Part shown: piece after piece, positions 17,345 through 27,107 of the stretch
Layout: each line of letters starts with the position of its first letter
Numbering within the stretch: the first letter of the stretch is position 1
Source of the DNA: Novosphingobium huizhouense
GTDB taxonomy: Bacteria > Pseudomonadota > Alphaproteobacteria > Sphingomonadales > Sphingomonadaceae
DNA: 64,000 nt
Reading direction: 5' to 3'
Assembly (NCBI RefSeq): GCF_020179475.1
Contig: NZ_JAILXZ010000003.1
Coordinates: 62,001-126,000 of the forward strand
Program-made: the position numbers and the translations under genes
Notes under the pieces: generated by a model
What the model was told of the DNA's origin: nothing
What the model saw: the letters and a program-made list of their open reading frames with translations, nothing else
The model's database searches: none

Positions 17345-17372
17345 TTGCATCGGTCCGTCCATGGAACATAAT
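17345..17372 (+). promoter_or_regulatory. Candidate imuA promoter overlapping the LexA box
   Basis: TTGCAT (17345-17350) and CATAAT (17367-17372) are separated by 16 bases. The -10 hexamer lies largely in the spacer of the LexA box, so bound LexA would block RNA polymerase directly. Confidence 0.55.
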
Positions 17373-17378
17373 AAGAAC
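17364..17378 (+). promoter_or_regulatory. LexA (SOS) box upstream of imuA
   Basis: GAAC-ATAATAA-GAAC is an exact match to the alphaproteobacterial LexA operator GAAC-N7-GAAC. It ends 17 bases before the imuA start codon. It places imuA-imuB under SOS control, as expected for the mutasome. Confidence 0.9.
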
Positions 17379-17395: not shown

Positions 17396-18175
17396 ATGCA
17401 CCTGTCCAACTCGTCCGTTCCTTCCGGCCTTCCGCCTGGTCTTGTCCGCGGCCTTGCCGCATCGACGCGCGCGGGCCGGTGGCGTCCGGGGCTCGCCACC
17501 GGCTGCCGCCATGCCGAGATCTTTGCGCCCGCAGGCGAAGGCAGCGGCGCGGGCCTTGCCCTTGCCCTCGCGCGCGAAGCGCTGAAGAACGAAGGCTGGC
17601 GCTGTGCTCCCGGCGATCCTGCCGCCGATACGCCCGACGAGCGCGCCTGGCTCTGGGTGCAGGACAAGGCCGCGCGTCGCTTGTCGGGCCGGCCCTATCG
17701 CCCGGGCCTGCCGCCCGACTTGCGCCACCGCCTGATCCACGTCGCCGCCGACAAGCCCGAGGACGCGCTGTTCGCGCTGGAGGAGGCCTTGCGCTGCCGG
17801 GATCTCGCCTTCGTCATCGGCGAGATTGCGGGCAACCCCAAGGCGCTCGATTTCACCGCCTCGCGCCGATTGAGCCTCGCGGCCGAAAGGCACGGCGTGC
17901 CGCTCTGGCTGGTGCGGCTCGATGCCGCCTGCGATCTCGGCTCGGCGCGGATGCGCTGGAAAGTGGTCGCCGCGCCATCGCCGGCGCCGCGCTGGAATGC
18001 CCATGCCCCGGGCGATCCCACCTGGCGCGCCGAGCTGTTCCGCGCCCACACCTTCCAACCCGGACAATGGACCTTGCGCGATGACGCCTCCGCCCTCGCT
18101 GTCTCCCCCGCTTTCGAGGCGGGTGCTGGCGATCTGGTGCGCGCACCTGGCGATCGATCGTTGGCGGCTGGCTGA
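17396..18175 (+). CDS. imuA: SOS mutasome protein ImuA (RecA-like)
   Basis: 259 residues from ATG 17396. The ImuA family pattern is present: GCRHAEIFAPAGEGSGAGLALALA (split here as GCRHAEIFAP and AGLALALA), then AFVIGEIAG and a RecA-like core in which I see no functional Walker A P-loop. ImuA is the cofactor that, with ImuB, directs DnaE2 to damaged DNA during SOS mutagenesis. It carries a perfect LexA box and a promoter-like sequence upstream and overlaps imuB by 95 bases. dnaE2 is not in this operon; it lies 5 kb downstream behind its own LexA box. Confidence 0.92.
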   Translation: MHLSNSSVPSGLPPGLVRGLAASTRAGRWRPGLATGCRHAEIFAPAGEGSGAGLALALAREALKNEGWRCAPGDPAADTPDERAWLWVQDKAARRLSGRPYRPGLPPDLRHRLIHVAADKPEDALFALEEALRCRDLAFVIGEIAGNPKALDFTASRRLSLAAERHGVPLWLVRLDAACDLGSARMRWKVVAAPSPAPRWNAHAPGDPTWRAELFRAHTFQPGQWTLRDDASALAVSPAFEAGAGDLVRAPGDRSLAAG

Positions 18176-19661
18176 GGGCTGCGACAGGGGGCGCGACGCC
18201 GATGCGGCCCCCGTCGTGCTGGTCGGCGAAAGCGCGCACGGCCCGCGCATCGCCGCGGTCAATGCCGCCGCGCAGGCGCAAGGGGCGGTGGTGGGCACGA
18301 TGCTCGCCGATGCCCGCGCGCTGTGCCCGGGGCTCGTCGTCCATCCCGCCGATCCTGCCGGCGATCTCGCCTTTCTCGAAGGCCTCGCGCTCTGGGCGCA
18401 GCGCTGGGGGCCGTGGAGCGCGCTCGATCCGCCCGATGGAGTGATCGTCGACACCACTGGCGCCGCGCACCTGTTCGGCGGCGAGCAGGCGCTGGTCGCG
18501 GATGCCCTGCGCCTGCTGCAGCGGCGGGGCCTTGCCGCGCGCGTCGCGCTCGCGCCCACCGCCGGCGCGGCCTGGGCGCTTGCCCATCACGGTCCGCAAG
18601 GCGCGATCCTGGCGGGCGGCGAGGACGTCGCCCGCCGCCTCGGCGCGCTGCCGGTGGCGGCGCTGCGGCTCGACGACGATGTCCTGCTGCTGTTGCGTCG
18701 CTTGGGGCTCAAGCGGATCGAGGATCTCGCTTCGGTCGAACGCGAGAACCTCGCCCGGCGTTTCCGCAACCGCCGCTCGCCCGCCGCCAATCCGCTCGTC
18801 CGGCTCGACCAGTTGCTCGGCCGCGTGCCCGAGCCGGCGCTGCCGGTGATCGGGGTGGAGGCGCCGATGGTCCAGCGCCGGCTGATGGAGCCGATCCGCC
18901 ACCGCAGCCTGCTCGACCGCGTCGTCGCCGACCTGGCCGGGGACATGGCGCGCGCGCTCGAAGGGCGCGGGCAGGGGGCGCGGCGGCTCGAACTGGGGCT
19001 GTGGAAGGTCGATGGCGAGGTCTTGGTGCGGCGGCTCGAGATGGCCGCCGCCTCGCGCGATCCGGCGCATCTGGTGCGCCTGTTCGCGGCGCGGCTCGAC
19101 GATGTCGATGCAGGCTTCGGCATCGAACTGGTGCGGATGCGCGCTTCGTGGACCGAGCCGCTGGCGCTGGCGCAGAGCGATCTCGAGGCCGCGGCCGAGA
19201 ACCACGGCACCAGCCTTGCCGCCTGCATCGACCGGCTGACGGTGCGGCTGGGGCCGCAGGCGGTGCGCCGCCCGGCGCCCCAGGCGAGCCACCTGCCCGA
19301 ACGCGCGCAGCGCTGGCAGCCACCTCTCGCACCGGTGAAGACTTCACAGGAAGAATTCGAATTTCACCACAGGCCACTGAAACTGCTGGATAGACCCGAA
19401 TCGATCGCGGTCATCTACGCTGCTCCCGACGGCCTGCCGCGCGTGTTCGGGTGGCGCGGTCGGCGGCACGTGATCGCGCGCGCCGAAGGCCCGGAGCGGA
19501 TCGCGCCCGAGTGGTGGCGCGAACGCTCGAGCGTGCGCCTGCGCGACTACTACCGCATCGAGGACGAGGAAGGCCGGCGTTTCTGGATCTACCGCCACGG
19601 CATCGCAGGCGATGGCCGCGGCGGCATGCCCGAATGGTTCATCCAGGGGCTATCGGCCTAG
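18081..19661 (+). CDS. imuB: SOS mutasome protein ImuB (inactive Y-family polymerase)
   Basis: 526 residues from ATG 18081, which overlaps imuA by 95 bases; a GTG at 18123 (just before AIWCAHLAIDRWR) is a plausible later start that would shorten the overlap to 53. Y-family palm, fingers and little-finger order is recognisable (AAQAQGAVVGTMLADARALC; DTTGAAHLFGGEQAL; helix-hairpin-helix RLGLKRIEDLASV), but the catalytic Asp/Glu residues of active Y polymerases are absent, as in ImuB. The C-terminal segment with GPERIAPEWW is the ImuB-specific extension. It acts as the hub joining beta clamp, ImuA and DnaE2. I did not find an unambiguous clamp-binding pentapeptide in it. Confidence 0.93.
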   Translation: MTPPPSLSPPLSRRVLAIWCAHLAIDRWRLAEGCDRGRDADAAPVVLVGESAHGPRIAAVNAAAQAQGAVVGTMLADARALCPGLVVHPADPAGDLAFLEGLALWAQRWGPWSALDPPDGVIVDTTGAAHLFGGEQALVADALRLLQRRGLAARVALAPTAGAAWALAHHGPQGAILAGGEDVARRLGALPVAALRLDDDVLLLLRRLGLKRIEDLASVERENLARRFRNRRSPAANPLVRLDQLLGRVPEPALPVIGVEAPMVQRRLMEPIRHRSLLDRVVADLAGDMARALEGRGQGARRLELGLWKVDGEVLVRRLEMAAASRDPAHLVRLFAARLDDVDAGFGIELVRMRASWTEPLALAQSDLEAAAENHGTSLAACIDRLTVRLGPQAVRRPAPQASHLPERAQRWQPPLAPVKTSQEEFEFHHRPLKLLDRPESIAVIYAAPDGLPRVFGWRGRRHVIARAEGPERIAPEWWRERSSVRLRDYYRIEDEEGRRFWIYRHGIAGDGRGGMPEWFIQGLSA

Positions 19662-20691: not shown

Positions 20692-20706
20692 GAACATATA
20701 AGGAAC
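20692..20706 (+). promoter_or_regulatory. LexA (SOS) box upstream of the radical-SAM / UdgX / dnaE2 operon
   Basis: GAAC-ATATAAG-GAAC matches GAAC-N7-GAAC exactly. It ends two bases before the ATG at 20709 and contains both a -10-like TATAAG (20697-20702) and the AGGA that would serve as ribosome binding site. LexA bound here would cover promoter and start codon. Confidence 0.88.
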
Positions 20707-20708
20707 AA

Positions 20709-21956
20709 ATGACCCGGCAATCCGTGATGGAACGACTCGAAATCCTGGCCGACGCCGCCAAGTACGATGCTTCCTGCGCCTCGTCGGGCACGGCCAGGCG
20801 CAACAGCAAGGGCGGGAAAGGGATCGGCTCGACCGAAGGCATGGGCATCTGCCACGCCTATGCGCCCGATGGCCGCTGCATCTCGCTGCTCAAGATCCTG
20901 CTGACCAACCACTGTGTGTTCGATTGCCACTACTGCATCAACCGCAAGAGTTCGAACACGCGGCGCGCGCGCTTCACCCCGCAAGAGGTGGTGGACCTGA
21001 CGCTGGCGTTCTACCGCCGCAACTACATCGAAGGGCTGTTCCTTTCCTCGGGCATCGTCAAAAGCTCCAGCCACACCATGGAACAGTTGATAGAAGTCGC
21101 ACGCATCCTTCGGGCAGAACACGATTTTCGCGGGTACATCCACCTCAAGACGATCCCCGAGGCCGATCCCGAGCTGGTCGCGCGCGCCGGGCTCTACGCC
21201 GATCGCGTGTCGATCAACGTCGAACTGCCGACGGTTGCTGGCCTCACCCGCCTCGCGCCTGACAAATCGGCGGGGCAGATCGAAGGCGCGATGGGCACGG
21301 TCAAGGCCGCGATCGTCGAAGCCAAGGATGCCCGCACGAAGTTCAAGTCGGCTCCGAAGTTCGCGCCCGCCGGGCAGTCCACCCAGATGATCGTCGGCGC
21401 CGATGCGGCGAGCGATGCCGATATCGTCGGGCGCGCGAGCACGCTCTACGATCGCTTCGCCTTGCGCCGCGTCTATTACTCCGCGTTCAGCCCGATCCCC
21501 GACGCCAGCGCGGTCCTGCCGCTCAAGCGCCCGCCCTTGATCCGCGAGCACCGCCTGTACCAGTCGGACTGGCTGATGCGTTTCTACGGCTATGCCCCCG
21601 GCGAAGTGCAGCAGGTGACCGACGCCGGCGGCATGCTCCCGCTCGACATCGATCCCAAGCTCGCCTGGGCGCTCAAGTTCCGCGAGCGCTTTCCGGTCGA
21701 CGTCAATCGCGCTCCGCGCGAAGCGCTGCTGCGCGTGCCGGGGCTCGGCGTGCGCGCGGTCAACGCGATCCTCGCCGCGCGCCGCCAGCGTCGTTTGCGA
21801 CTCGACGACATCGCCCGGCTGACGGTCTCGCTCGCCAAGGTGCGCCCGTTCCTCGTCGCCGAGGACTGGCGCCCGGTGCTGCTGACCGACAAGGCCGACT
21901 TGCGCACGCTGGTCGCGCCCAGGAAGGCCGAGCAGCTCGAACTGTTCGTGGCATGA
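20709..21956 (+). CDS. Putative DNA modification/repair radical-SAM protein (TIGR03916 type)
   Basis: 415 residues from ATG 20709; ATG 20727 is an alternative start. The radical-SAM cluster motif is C69-xxx-C73-xx-C76 (CVFDCHYC), binding a 4Fe-4S cluster and S-adenosylmethionine. The N-terminal block KLEILADAAKYD-like (RLEILADAAKYDASCASSG) and GICHAYAPDGRCISLLK identify the family linked to UdgX. A helix-hairpin-helix DNA-binding segment lies near the C-terminus (LLRVPGLGVRAVNAIL). The protein ends in QLELF-VA (Q409-F413), close to the beta-clamp-binding consensus QL(S/D)LF. It overlaps the next gene by ATGA and is preceded by a LexA box. Reaction and substrate are unknown. Confidence 0.9.
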   Translation: MTRQSVMERLEILADAAKYDASCASSGTARRNSKGGKGIGSTEGMGICHAYAPDGRCISLLKILLTNHCVFDCHYCINRKSSNTRRARFTPQEVVDLTLAFYRRNYIEGLFLSSGIVKSSSHTMEQLIEVARILRAEHDFRGYIHLKTIPEADPELVARAGLYADRVSINVELPTVAGLTRLAPDKSAGQIEGAMGTVKAAIVEAKDARTKFKSAPKFAPAGQSTQMIVGADAASDADIVGRASTLYDRFALRRVYYSAFSPIPDASAVLPLKRPPLIREHRLYQSDWLMRFYGYAPGEVQQVTDAGGMLPLDIDPKLAWALKFRERFPVDVNRAPREALLRVPGLGVRAVNAILAARRQRRLRLDDIARLTVSLAKVRPFLVAEDWRPVLLTDKADLRTLVAPRKAEQLELFVA

Positions 21957-23395
21957 CCCCGTTTCGCGACATGCGCCTGCCGCACGCCTATCAGGTCACG
22001 CTCGGCGCGCCGGACGATTTCGAAGGCTGGCGGGATCAGGCGCGGCGGCTGGTCCAGTGCGACGTCCCGCCCGACCGCGTGGTATGGGATGCACCCGGCA
22101 GCGCGGCCACGGATCTCTTTGCCCAAGGCGACCGCCGCCTGCCCGTGCCGGCGGCTGGGGCGGCGCAACCGCGCGCGTCGCGTCAGTTCCTGCAACTTGC
22201 CCAAAGCGTCACCCTTCATTCTGATCCGGAAAGATTTTCCTTGCTGTACCGGTTGCTCTGGCGGCTGCAGGCGCAGCCCCGGCTGATGGAGGATGCCGCC
22301 GATGCCGATGTCGGGCAGGCCGACCGGCTGGCGCGGCAGGTGCGGCGCGACATCCACAAGATGCGCGCCTTCCTGCGCTTCCGCGTGGTCGAGGAGGACA
22401 GCGGCGCGGAACGCTACGTCGCCTGGTTCGAGCCCGAGCACCACATCCTGCGCGCCAATGCCGGGTTCTTCGTCCGCCGCTTCACCACCATGCGCTGGTC
22501 GATCCTCACGCCCCAGGGGACGCTCCACTGGGATGGCGAGAGCTTGCAGGAAGGCCCCCCGGCCGAACGCGCCGATGCGCCCAGTGGCGACCCCACCGAG
22601 GACCTGTGGCGCCGCTACTATGCGTCGATCTTCAACCCCGCGCGTTTGAAGATCGGGGCGATGCTCAAGGAGATGCCCCGCAAGTACTGGAAGAACATGC
22701 CCGAAGCGGCGCTCATTCCCGAGCTCGTCGCCACGGCCCAGGCGCGCGAGGCGACGATGGTGGATAGCGGCAGGTCGATGTTCGAGGACGCGGAGCGCCC
22801 GGCGAACCTCGAGCAGATTGCGAACATGATCGAGGCCTGCCGCCGCTGCCCGATCGGCTGCAACGGCACCCATGCCGTGGCGGGCGAAGGGCCTTCACGC
22901 GCGCCGCTGATGATCGTCGGCGAGCAGCCCGGCGATGTCGAGGAACAGCAGGGGCGGCCGTTCGTCGGCCCGGCCGGGCGCCTGCTCCGTTCGCATCTCG
23001 AAGACGCGGGCCTCGATCTCGGCGCTGCCTGGCTCACCAATGCGGTCAAGCACTTCAAGTTCGTGCCGCGGGGCAAGCGACGGCTGCACCAGTCGCCCAC
23101 CGCCAAGGAGATCGACACCTGCCGCTGGTGGGTCGACAGCGAGCGCCTGCTGGTCCGTCCGCGGCTGATCCTCGCGCTCGGCGCCAGCGCGGCGCGCGGG
23201 CTGCTCGGCCGCACCGTCAGCGTGCAGAAGGAGCGCAGCCGGCCCCATGCGCTCGAGGATGGGGCGGAGCTGTGGATCACCACCCACCCCAGCTACCTGC
23301 TGCGGCTCCAGGATGACGCCAGGGCAGGCGAGGAGGCCCGCTTTGCGCAGGACTTGCGCACGGTCGCAGGGCGTCTTGCCGAGCTGACGTCATGA
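21953..23395 (+). CDS. DUF4130 domain fused to UdgX-type uracil-DNA glycosylase
   Basis: 480 residues, ATG overlapping the previous stop. The N-terminal half (about 75-255; SRQFLQLAQSVTLHSD, VRRDIHKMRAFLRFR, FVRRFTTMRWSILTP) is a DUF4130 domain. The C-terminal half is a family 4-like uracil-DNA glycosylase: iron-sulphur cysteines CRRCPIGC, motif A GEQPGD (323-328), GRPFVGPAGRLL, and HPSYLLR (H445). The loop KRRLH (H379) matches the UdgX-specific KRRIH loop whose His forms a covalent bond with the abasic sugar after uracil removal, so it should crosslink to uracil-DNA rather than turn over. Co-translated with the radical-SAM protein; dnaE2 follows 19 bases later. Confidence 0.92.
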   Translation: MTPFRDMRLPHAYQVTLGAPDDFEGWRDQARRLVQCDVPPDRVVWDAPGSAATDLFAQGDRRLPVPAAGAAQPRASRQFLQLAQSVTLHSDPERFSLLYRLLWRLQAQPRLMEDAADADVGQADRLARQVRRDIHKMRAFLRFRVVEEDSGAERYVAWFEPEHHILRANAGFFVRRFTTMRWSILTPQGTLHWDGESLQEGPPAERADAPSGDPTEDLWRRYYASIFNPARLKIGAMLKEMPRKYWKNMPEAALIPELVATAQAREATMVDSGRSMFEDAERPANLEQIANMIEACRRCPIGCNGTHAVAGEGPSRAPLMIVGEQPGDVEEQQGRPFVGPAGRLLRSHLEDAGLDLGAAWLTNAVKHFKFVPRGKRRLHQSPTAKEIDTCRWWVDSERLLVRPRLILALGASAARGLLGRTVSVQKERSRPHALEDGAELWITTHPSYLLRLQDDARAGEEARFAQDLRTVAGRLAELTS

Positions 23396-23414: not shown

Positions 23415-26400
23415 GTGCCCGAAGGACCGCTGACTCCCGAGCGGCGGCGGATCGAGCCCGAAGAGGACCTGCTTCCCCCGCTGCGCGCGCCGTTCGTCGA
23501 ACTGGGCCTCGTCACCTGCTTTTCCTTCCTGCGCGGCGCGTCCGACCCGGTCGATCTCGTCCTCCAGGCGCGCGCGCTCGGTTACGATGCGCTGGGCGTG
23601 GCCGACGTCAATTCGATGGCGGGCGTCGTGCGCATCCACACCGAAGCCCATGCACTGCGCCTGCGCCCGGTGATCGGCTGCCGGATCGAGACGGTCGAGG
23701 GGTTCGCCTTCCTCGCCTATCCCTCCGACCGCGCCGCCTACGGTCGCCTGTGCCGCCTGATCTCGGCCGCCCGCATGGCGACGCTCGACGGACAATGGCA
23801 GGCCAAGGGGGTGTGCGAGATCGACCTCGCGCTGCTCGCCGCGCATGGCGATGGCGTGCATCTCGTGCTGGTGCCGCCGCGTGATCTCGACCGCCGCTTT
23901 CCCCTCGGCGCGGGGAGCAACGTGGTCGCGCTGCACGATGACGCCAGCTTGCCCACAGCCGGGTCCACCGCTTTTGCCGAACTTGTCCCCCACCTTGTCC
24001 ACAGCCTGCCCACGCTGCGCCACCTCGCGGCAACGCCGCTCCATGCCGGCGACGACGTCGCCCGGATCGAGCGGCTCGACGCGCTGGCGCGCGCGCACGG
24101 CCTCGGCCTGCTCGCCACCAACGACGTGCTCTACCACGCGCCCGAGCGGCGGCCGCTGCAGGACGTGATGACCGCGATCCGCCACAAGACCACGGTCGAT
24201 CGCGCCGGCTATCTGCTCGAAGCCAATGGCGAACGGCACCTGAAGTCGCCCGAGGAGATGGTCCGGCTCTTCGCGCGCTGGCCGCACGCGATTGCCGCCG
24301 CGCGCGATCTCGCCGATGCCTGCCGCTTCAGCTTGAGCGAGTTGCGCTACGAATATCCCAAGGAAATCTGCCCTGAAGGCCACGATCCTCAGACTTGGCT
24401 TGAAGAACGGACATGGGCCGGCGCGGCGATCCGCTATCCCGCCGGCGTGCCCGAAAGCGTCGCCGACACGCTGCGCCGCGAACTTGAACTGATTGGCAAG
24501 CTCAACCTCGCGACCTATTTCCTCACGATCAAGGACATCGTCGATTTCGCGCGCGGCTGCGAGCCGCCGATCCTGTGCCAGGGGCGCGGCTCGGCGGCCA
24601 ATTCGGCGGTGTGCTACTGCCTGGAAATCACCGCAGTGGACCCTGCGCGCCACGCGCTGCTGTTCGATCGCTTCATCTCCGAGGAGCGCAAGGAGCCGCC
24701 CGACATCGACGTCGATTTCGAGCACGAGCGGCGCGAGGAGGTGATCCAGTACATTTACCGCCGCTACGGCCGCCAGCGCGCCGGGCTCTGCGCCACGGTG
24801 ATCCACTACCGCCCGCGCATGGCGGTGCGCGAGGTGGGCAAGGCGATGGGGCTGACCGAAGACGTCACCGCCGCATTGGCGCGCACCGTCTGGGGCGGCT
24901 GGGGCACCGAGATCGCCGAGAAGCACGTCGCCGAAACCGGGCTCGATCTGACGGATCCACACTTGAGACGGGTTCTGAAGTTGACGCAGCAGATGATCGG
25001 AATGCCGCGGCATCTTTCGCAGCACGTCGGCGGCTTCATCCTCACCCAGGGGCCGCTGACCGAGACCGTGCCGATCGGCAACGGGGCGATGCCCGAGCGC
25101 AGCTTCATCGAATGGGACAAGGACGACATCGATGCCTTGGGCATCCTCAAGGTCGATGTGCTCGCGCTCGGCATGCTCACCTGCATTGCCAAGTGCCTCG
25201 ACCTCCTGCGCGCGCACCACGGGCAGGACCTGACTCTCGCCAGCGTCCCGCGCGAGGACCCGGCGGTCTACGACATGCTGTGCAAGGGGGATTCGCTGGG
25301 CGTGTTCCAGGTCGAGAGCCGTGCGCAGATGAACATGCTGCCTCGCCTGCGCCCGCGCGAATTCTACGACCTTGTCGTGCAGGTGGCGATCGTCCGGCCC
25401 GGGCCGATCCAGGGCGACATGGTCCACCCCTACCTCAAGCGGCGGCGCGGGGACGAGGCGGTGACGATCCCCGCGCCCGACCCGCGCCACGGTCCCCCGG
25501 ATGAACTCAGTGCGATCCTCGGGCGGACATACGGCGTGCCGATCTTCCAGGAACAGGCGATGAAGATCGCGCTCGACGCGGCAAAGTTCTCCAGCCGCGA
25601 AGCCAACCGCCTGCGCAAGGCGATGGCGACCTTCCGCAGCCGCGGCATGGTCGACGAACTGCAGGACATGATGGTCGGGCGGATGATCGAGCGTGGCTAC
25701 GATCCCGACTTCGCCGCGCGCTGCTTCGACCAGATCAAGGGCTTCGGCGAATACGGCTTTCCCGAAAGCCACGCGGCGAGCTTCGCGCACCTCGTCTACG
25801 TCTCGTCGTGGCTCAAGTGCCATTATCCTGCGGCCTTCGCCTGCGCGCTGCTCAACTCGCAGCCGATGGGCTTCTACGCCCCGGCGCAGATCGTCCACGA
25901 CGCCGCCCAGCACGGCGTCGTCGTGCTTCCCGCCGACGTCAACCACTCGGACTGGGACTGCACGTTGGAGGTTCAGGGCGATGAGGATGTTTCGCGCAGA
26001 GGCGCAGAGGCGCAGAGGGAAGAAGGAACGGGTTCGCGCAGAGACCGCAGGGAGCGCAGAGAGGGGGCGCGCGGCGGCGAAGCCGCTTTGCTTTCAGATG
26101 GCGATGCCGGAAGACATCCCGCCTGCGGCGGGCAGGGCCTCTCTGCGCCCTCTGCGGTCTCTGCGCGAAACCACCTGCCGTCTTCCTCGCCTCCGCGCGA
26201 AACCAGAATCGCCCTGCGCCTCGGCCTGCGCCAGATCGATGGCCTGGCCGAACACGCCGCCGCCGCGCTGGTGTCGGCGCGGGGTGAGGGCGGGGCCTTC
26301 GCCGATGCCGCCGCGCTCAAGGATCGGGCGGGGCTGTCGCCGGCGGTGATCGAGCGCCTGGCCGCCGCCGATGCGCTGGGCTCGCTCGGCCTGTCGCGGC

Positions 26401-27107
26401 GCCAGGCGCTATGGGATGCGCGCAGCCTGATCGCCGCGCCAGACCTGCCGCTGTTCGCTGCCGCCGCCGCGCGCGACCAGGGAACCGAGCGCAGCGTCAC
26501 CCGCCTGCCGGCCATGCCGCTGTCAGAGGAAGTCGTTGCCGATTACCAGACCCAGCGCCTGTCGCTGAAGGCGCACCCGATGGCCTTCCTGCGCGCCGGC
26601 CTTGCCGAGCGCGGCTTCGTGCGCGCCTGCGACCTGCGCCAGCGCAAGTTCCGGTCGATGGTCCATGTCGCCGGGGTGGTGCTGATCCGCCAGCAGCCGG
26701 GGTCGGCCAAGGGGGTGTGCTTCATCACGCTCGAGGACGAGACCGGCGTGGTCAACCTCGTCGTCTGGCCCGATCTCAAGGAGAAGCAGCGCAAGGTGGT
26801 GATGGGCGCGCGGCTGATGGAAGTGCGCGGTCGCGTCGAATACGACGACGAGGTGATCCACGTGATTGCCGCGCATCTCACCGACGCCAGCGCCGCGCTC
26901 AATGCCCTGTCCGACGCGACACTGGCGCCTCCGCTGGCGCGCGCCGATCACGTCAACAACCCGCTGCCGAGCCATATGCGCGGCGCCGCGGTGTCGTTCC
27001 CGCCCGAGGAACCTTTCGTTGCCCCGCCCGGCAATCGCGAATGTGGCTACCATCGCAGCCATCCGCGCGACGTGCGGATCATTCCCAAGTCGCGCGACTT
27101 CCATTGA
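23415..27107 (+). CDS. dnaE2: Error-prone DNA polymerase DnaE2
   Basis: 1230 residues from GTG 23415 with GGAGGG 5 bases upstream. Order: a PHP domain with degraded metal ligands (about 27-260), PolIII-alpha palm with GRGSAANSAVCYCLEIT and catalytic aspartates D432/D434 in PDIDVDF, fingers (SQHVGGFILTQGP; FGEYGFPESHAASFAHLVY), helix-hairpin-helix, a DLPLF peptide (about 1010-1014) resembling a clamp-binding motif, and an OB fold near 1070-1140. It performs translesion and mutagenic synthesis in the SOS response with ImuA and ImuB. Residues about 859-930, between CTLE and LRLGLRQIDGL, are encoded by a palindromic repeat and have no counterpart in the family. Confidence 0.96.
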   Translation: MPEGPLTPERRRIEPEEDLLPPLRAPFVELGLVTCFSFLRGASDPVDLVLQARALGYDALGVADVNSMAGVVRIHTEAHALRLRPVIGCRIETVEGFAFLAYPSDRAAYGRLCRLISAARMATLDGQWQAKGVCEIDLALLAAHGDGVHLVLVPPRDLDRRFPLGAGSNVVALHDDASLPTAGSTAFAELVPHLVHSLPTLRHLAATPLHAGDDVARIERLDALARAHGLGLLATNDVLYHAPERRPLQDVMTAIRHKTTVDRAGYLLEANGERHLKSPEEMVRLFARWPHAIAAARDLADACRFSLSELRYEYPKEICPEGHDPQTWLEERTWAGAAIRYPAGVPESVADTLRRELELIGKLNLATYFLTIKDIVDFARGCEPPILCQGRGSAANSAVCYCLEITAVDPARHALLFDRFISEERKEPPDIDVDFEHERREEVIQYIYRRYGRQRAGLCATVIHYRPRMAVREVGKAMGLTEDVTAALARTVWGGWGTEIAEKHVAETGLDLTDPHLRRVLKLTQQMIGMPRHLSQHVGGFILTQGPLTETVPIGNGAMPERSFIEWDKDDIDALGILKVDVLALGMLTCIAKCLDLLRAHHGQDLTLASVPREDPAVYDMLCKGDSLGVFQVESRAQMNMLPRLRPREFYDLVVQVAIVRPGPIQGDMVHPYLKRRRGDEAVTIPAPDPRHGPPDELSAILGRTYGVPIFQEQAMKIALDAAKFSSREANRLRKAMATFRSRGMVDELQDMMVGRMIERGYDPDFAARCFDQIKGFGEYGFPESHAASFAHLVYVSSWLKCHYPAAFACALLNSQPMGFYAPAQIVHDAAQHGVVVLPADVNHSDWDCTLEVQGDEDVSRRGAEAQREEGTGSRRDRRERREGARGGEAALLSDGDAGRHPACGGQGLSAPSAVSARNHLPSSSPPRETRIALRLGLRQIDGLAEHAAAALVSARGEGGAFADAAALKDRAGLSPAVIERLAAADALGSLGLSRRQALWDARSLIAAPDLPLFAAAAARDQGTERSVTRLPAMPLSEEVVADYQTQRLSLKAHPMAFLRAGLAERGFVRACDLRQRKFRSMVHVAGVVLIRQQPGSAKGVCFITLEDETGVVNLVVWPDLKEKQRKVVMGARLMEVRGRVEYDDEVIHVIAAHLTDASAALNALSDATLAPPLARADHVNNPLPSHMRGAAVSFPPEEPFVAPPGNRECGYHRSHPRDVRIIPKSRDFH
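25989..26203. repeat. Nested palindromic repeat inserted in frame in dnaE2
   Basis: The outer arms are GTTTCGCGCAGAGG at 25989 and its imperfect complement ending at 26203. Inside is a second, better palindrome (26031-26172): about 34 bases beginning GGTTCGCGCAGAGACCGCAG on the left match the complement of the right arm ending TCTCTGCGCGAAACC. The right outer arm is more diverged. The element keeps the dnaE2 frame open and adds about 72 low-complexity residues (RRGAEAQREE... RRDRRERREGARG). It carries no transposase and resembles a MITE or REP-type element; insertion in frame recalls rickettsial palindromic elements. Confidence 0.8.

Follow-up and report, generated by a model that had tools for sequence, protein, structure and literature searches.

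Does the peptide QLELF at the very end of a radical-SAM protein from Novosphingobium huizhouense hold this enzyme on the sliding clamp DnaN, or is its likeness to a clamp-binding motif a coincidence? The question arises at a gene cluster within a stretch of 64,000 nucleotides (the window; Table 1), in which imuA and imuB are followed by the radical-SAM gene, a DUF4130-UdgX fusion gene and dnaE2. We favour, with a probability of roughly 0.86, the reading that QLELF is a true sliding-clamp-binding motif, carried on a flexible tail behind the helix-hairpin-helix (HhH) of an SOS-induced radical-SAM DNA-repair enzyme that would be tethered to DnaN. The sequences show the motif itself, its conservation, the variable linker before it, the LexA boxes and the company of genes; from them we infer that the protein binds DnaN, that it acts where DNA carries a clamp, and what kind of chemistry it performs.

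Table 1. Features of the radical-SAM locus, with nucleotide positions in the window.
Feature	Position	Strand	Basis or remark
LexA box GAACATAATAAGAAC	17364-17378		directly before imuA start
ImuB (inactive Y-family polymerase), mutasome cassette	17922..19661	+	
Alphaproteobacterial-type LexA box GAACATATAAGGAAC	20692..20706	+	17 bases before radical-SAM ATG
Radical-SAM protein TIGR03916 / rSAM_link_UDG, 415 aa	20709..21956	+	hmmscan 567.6 bits (curated cut-off 343.5), full-length member; CX3CX2C
Radical-SAM [4Fe-4S] site CVFDCHYC (C69, C73, C76; residues 69-76)	20913..20936	+	sequence
Helix-hairpin-helix DNA-binding region, residues 330-360, hairpin PGLG 344-347	21696..21788	+	Pfam HHH_3
Variable linker between HhH domain and motif, about residues 392-408	21882..21932	+	entropy, variable length, pLDDT
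C-terminal clamp-binding motif QLELF (predicted), residues 409-413	21933..21947	+	sequence; kept in relatives
DUF4130 (TIGR03915) fused to UdgX-type uracil-DNA glycosylase (TIGR03914)	21953..23395	+	both domains above cut-off
DnaE2 error-prone polymerase	23415..27107	+	NF004225, 1381 bits
Weak clamp motif DLPLF of DnaE2, residues 1010-1014	26442..26456	+	[DEP]LPLF in neighbours

As the sequence-only reading had stated, translation of the open reading frame (ATG at 20709, stop codon at 21954-21956) places QLELF at residues 409-413 of 415, and only the residues VA separate it from the stop codon. The pattern Qxx[LM][FLW] occurs once in the whole protein, as QLELF. Upon shuffling of the protein, QLxLF falls within the last 10 residues at a frequency of 2e-4 and a relaxed motif at 1.7e-3, which is low yet not negligible. 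A six-frame scan of the whole genome for DNA encoding Q[LF]x[LF]F finds 51 sites; three of them, that of the radical-SAM gene included, lie at most 10 codons from an in-frame stop. Since about three such terminal peptides arise in this single genome, QLELF in one genome taken alone is weak evidence and suggestive only.

Does the peptide conform to what the clamp is known to accept? The bacterial clamp consensus QL[S/D]LF has been recast as two patterns, Qphi-x-[LM]-[FL] with five residues and Qphi-x-[LM]-x-[FL] with six (PMC13254535; PMC3919608; PMC12309361), and position 3 is free in the published form (PMC13254535). The Glu in place of Asp, which the sequence-only reading had accepted in a clamp-type motif, is indeed no objection, because RecB QVEMEF, also with Glu at position 3, binds the E. 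coli clamp with a KD of 2.0 uM (PMC13254535).

What carries the main reading is conservation. A search for loss of the motif in close homologues found it present throughout: all 80 Sphingomonadales homologues (76-87% identical) end in Q[LMF][END][LM]F followed by 0-2 residues, and in an alignment of 69 sequences Q409 and F413 are invariant and E411 and L412 are conserved to at least 90%. The same holds at greater distance. Of 163 full-length relatives spanning Pseudomonadota, Bacteroidota, Bacillota and Gemmatimonadota, all but two, hence 161, bear a clamp-like motif within their last 60 residues (among shuffled tails 14.9 sequences had one on average and never more than 27, among reversed tails 4), and 134 of these 161 match the strict five-residue clamp form. 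The two remaining tails are one with QGSLF and that of a Sulfitobacter record, which is apparently frame-shifted. In other Alpha-, Beta- and Gammaproteobacteria, where identity is mostly 49-67%, the tails carry QLSLF, QLALF, QLSLL, QMALW, QLGFGF, QLSLGF, QASLF and similar peptides; QLILEF, QLLLDF, QLILPF and QLSLF are found in Bacteroidota, QLSLF and QLSIF in Clostridia, and QLSLW in Gemmatimonadota. The tails of the family switch between lineages from a five-residue form (QLSLF, QLELF) to a six-residue form (QLSLGF, QLILEF, QLGFGF), and a few relatives depart from the strict consensus (QMALW, QGSLF, QMLLI) or continue for some residues beyond the motif; judged by the published rules, the variants would be mostly of types that the clamp accepts. 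The NCBIfam model TIGR03916 itself ends on the motif: its final positions (to 415/415) align to the motif in several relatives, and removal of QLSLF from a Spirosoma protein costs 3.7 bits and makes the match retreat to position 405. As nearly all relatives examined, from at least four bacterial phyla, keep a clamp-type peptide, sites of replication or repair are the probable place of action of the enzyme.

Five contigs from human faeces, entered in the database as 'UNVERIFIED Bacteriophage sp.', also carry the radical-SAM gene and the motif; such contigs are related to Clostridia (QLSMF, QLSFF) and may be bacterial DNA rather than phage. Scans of viral contigs gave no radical-SAM matches with two distant relatives as queries, and two loci only with the alignment as query.

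Is it the peptide or the underlying DNA that is preserved? The 73 copies of QLELF are written in 29 distinct DNA spellings, and Sphingomonas loci keep the motif with the UDG gene 0.5-3.3 kb off or absent from the locus. Since synonymous codons drift and the motif is kept where no UDG gene follows, selection, as judged from these sequences, acts on the peptide and not on the DNA, and translational coupling is not the reason for the motif. We therefore rejected the overlap with the downstream start codon as its cause. A more general explanation by chance, phylogenetic inertia or a by-product of that overlap could draw on the three or so terminal peptides of a single genome and on the stop codon of the radical-SAM gene, which here overlaps the start of the DUF4130-UdgX gene (ATGA). 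It is barely credible, given a motif that is kept at about 50% identity across phyla while the linker diverged, is spelled in many synonymous ways and is retained without an adjacent downstream gene. The frequencies obtained by shuffling the single sequence are overruled by this conservation.

The segment ahead of the motif behaves differently from the motif, as it differs in length and sequence among relatives. In 74 tails from outside the Sphingomonadales, most linker columns have an entropy near 3 bits, against 0.9 bits at position 2 of the motif and 0.6 bits at position 4; these tails were anchored on Q, so that Q is fixed by construction and the choice at positions 2 and 4 is limited in part. 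A cross-phylum MAFFT alignment of 13 sequences is free of this anchoring bias; past F381, at the end of the HhH, its only invariant columns are the Q and the L of the motif. In an AF2 model, pLDDT is 87-96 over residues 321-390, which comprise the HhH and are the best-modelled part, and falls to about 55 over 391-400, about 50 over 401-410 and below 50 over 408-415. Within the C-terminal half of the model the tail thus has the lowest confidence, which would suit a flexible peptide; since the model, built on 69 close relatives only, is poor overall (mean pLDDT 64), this is weak evidence of disorder. Could the C-terminus instead pack on the body of the enzyme and be conserved for folding? Conservation of the tail in almost all members would fit such a role, but it is highly improbable in view of the variable linker, of the low confidence of the tail directly behind a well-modelled HhH and of some Clostridial-type members in which the motif lies 15-34 residues upstream of the C-terminus.

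The protein behind this tail has the core of a radical-SAM enzyme, with C69, C73 and C76 invariant in both the 69-sequence close-homologue and the 13-sequence cross-phylum alignments. Nearer the N-terminus, in residues 23-58 (20775-20883), C23, C48, H49 and C57 are invariant in the 69 close homologues, and cysteines matching C23, C48 and C57 are at least 90% conserved across phyla; these residues are possible ligands of an auxiliary cluster. The HhH, which the sequence-only reading had put near residue 375, lies further upstream, at about 330-360, where Pfam HHH_3 aligns with 20.8 bits, under its gathering score of 27, and where the HhH of ComEA gives a weak sequence match. A DNA search found no E. 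coli homologue of the gene; among the control genomes, Caulobacter has a match to the family.

When would such an enzyme be made? A GAACN7GAAC box stands upstream of the radical-SAM gene in 129 of 162 loci (0.028 expected by chance per 230 bases and locus), at a nearly fixed distance from the start in most alphaproteobacterial relatives. Of the Pseudomonadota loci without this box, 14 have the E. coli-type CTGTN8ACAG instead (0.009 expected), and paired GAACN4GTTC sites are found in two loci of Clostridial type. With the operator proper to its lineage at the promoter, the gene would belong to the LexA regulon, consistent with published SOS regulation. We take COG4277 to be the TIGR03916 family, which fits its pairing with a UDG in the SOS literature. 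There, COG4277 is the name of the operon partner of COG1573; a study of Bacteroidetes reports the COG1573-COG4277 operon to be under SOS control and refers to earlier work on Verrucomicrobia and Alphaproteobacteria (PMC8565304); SOS regulation of the radical-SAM gene is thus not new.

The neighbouring genes raise a further alternative, namely that the conserved tail docks another partner, chiefly the adjacent DUF4130 protein, and that its clamp likeness is coincidental. Indeed, a UDG/DUF4130 relative comes after the radical-SAM gene in most loci. Such a tail, however, would have to imitate the five-residue and the six-residue clamp consensus alike in all phyla seen. The motif does not change between loci with a plain DUF4130 partner and those with DUF4130-UdgX, and peptides of the QLSLF type bind DnaN in vitro (PMC4549789; PMC12309361). 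Since the tail conforms to the clamp rules in each phylum seen, however the partner is built, we regard docking to DUF4130 as the less likely reading, and as an improbable one. In Acinetobacter, Bacteroidota and Clostridia records, the gene after the radical-SAM gene is annotated as TIGR03915 or 'DNA metabolism'. The order imuB, radical-SAM gene, UDG gene, dnaE2 is kept in many Novosphingobium and Erythrobacteraceae loci, and Sphingomonas loci have neither dnaE2 nor imuB within 7 kb on either side.

A second motif proposed by the sequence-only reading, DLPLF near residues 1010-1014 of DnaE2, lies at precisely these residues, and [DEP]LPLF is present in the DnaE2 of all neighbours. PLPLF, or xLPLF, is the published weak clamp motif of alphaproteobacterial DnaE2 (PMC3919608). 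It is likely that the radical-SAM protein and DnaE2 both dock on the clamp, and that they do so unevenly, because the DnaE2 motif belongs to this known weak class. The most canonical predicted clamp motif in the cluster is that of the radical-SAM protein, a ranking not foreseen earlier.

DnaE2 of the window has two further features. It ends in SRDFH (27090-27104), which fits SRDF[H/R], a C-terminal motif for interaction described in the literature (PMC3919608). An in-frame stretch of about 80 residues (25975-26220; SRRGAEAQREE...) is absent or different in relatives; as its DNA is palindromic and pieces of it recur elsewhere in the genome, a repetitive element seems to have inserted here without breaking the frame.

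In ImuB of the window, no match to the clamp-motif consensus was found; the usual place (19173-19187) reads QSDLE and is without the final aromatic residue. A clade-specific loss was considered and rejected, as other Alphaproteobacteria are likewise Q-anchored but non-canonical there. A six-residue clamp-like peptide, QEEFEF, lies at 19347-19364, 58 residues beyond QSDLE; at its place QxxLxFH occurs in 17 of 33 ImuB relatives of the clade and is not seen in other Alphaproteobacteria. QEEFEF is possibly a relocated clamp motif.

How could a clamp-tethered radical-SAM enzyme act? Upon cleavage of LexA, the unit of the radical-SAM, DUF4130-UdgX and dnaE2 genes would be expressed. The HhH domain would then bind DNA while the tail enters the hydrophobic pocket of DnaN, and this docking would keep the enzyme on DNA at forks, gaps and other clamp-loaded places, where it may perform radical chemistry on damaged DNA or bases jointly with DUF4130/UdgX. 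The replication fork is just one of several places with loaded clamps. We would give even odds to a broader proposal, in which TIGR03916 is a bacteria-wide class of SOS-induced, clamp-tethered radical-SAM enzymes that carry out radical chemistry on damaged DNA at gaps and stalled forks with DUF4130/UdgX, competing with the mutasome polymerases for the clamp pocket or handing over to them.

The TIGR03916/DUF4130/UdgX system is widespread, and the motif points to its site of action, clamp-loaded DNA under SOS control; its role is therefore testable by simple assays, and substrates can be sought at gaps and forks. If the main reading is true, a radical-SAM enzyme joins the proteins that contend for one clamp pocket in damage tolerance; under the broader proposal it would be, as far as we found in the literature, the first radical-SAM enzyme shown as a replisome client.

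How does the protein compare with known systems? It is a full-length member of NCBIfam TIGR03916, named 'putative DNA modification/repair radical SAM protein' by NCBI, is paired with TIGR03915/TIGR03914 like that family and does not differ from it in kind. The family and its association with UDG/DUF4130 have been described before (PMC3765255); in the literature searched, with most subscription journals outside, we found no report of a clamp motif in it. Thus, family, SOS control and UDG/DUF4130 link were known already, and the predicted clamp motif is a new and well-supported element. With spore photoproduct lyase (SplB-like) the protein has radical SAM, DNA repair and an SOS link in common, but it differs by its HhH domain and clamp motif. 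Among PDB sequences the lyase gave no sequence match, and a fold search with the weak model returned generic radical-SAM enzymes, lipoyl synthase and viperin; membership in that family is thus not supported by sequence, and the fold matches are unspecific.

The ImuA-ImuB-DnaE2 mutasome, whose ImuB binds the clamp via QLPLWG in M. tuberculosis (PMC10421592), shares a common cluster and LexA-box control with the radical-SAM gene in Novosphingobium and Erythrobacteraceae relatives. The radical-SAM pair is, however, not a defining part of it: in Sphingomonas and other lineages the pair is separated from dnaE2. RecB, a repair enzyme, offers a recent parallel for a clamp motif that contains Glu, but its QVEMEF is internal, six residues long, located in the nuclease domain and exposed on conformational switching. 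PolC, E. coli DinB-type polymerases and many transposases have a short Qphi-x-L-F motif at an exposed C-terminus (PMC12309361, PMC4549789, PMC6511836); PolC ends in QLSLF (PMC12309361), and a terminal clamp motif is typical of transposases (PMC4549789). These known clients with a terminal motif are polymerases and transposases, whereas here the predicted client is a radical-SAM enzyme.
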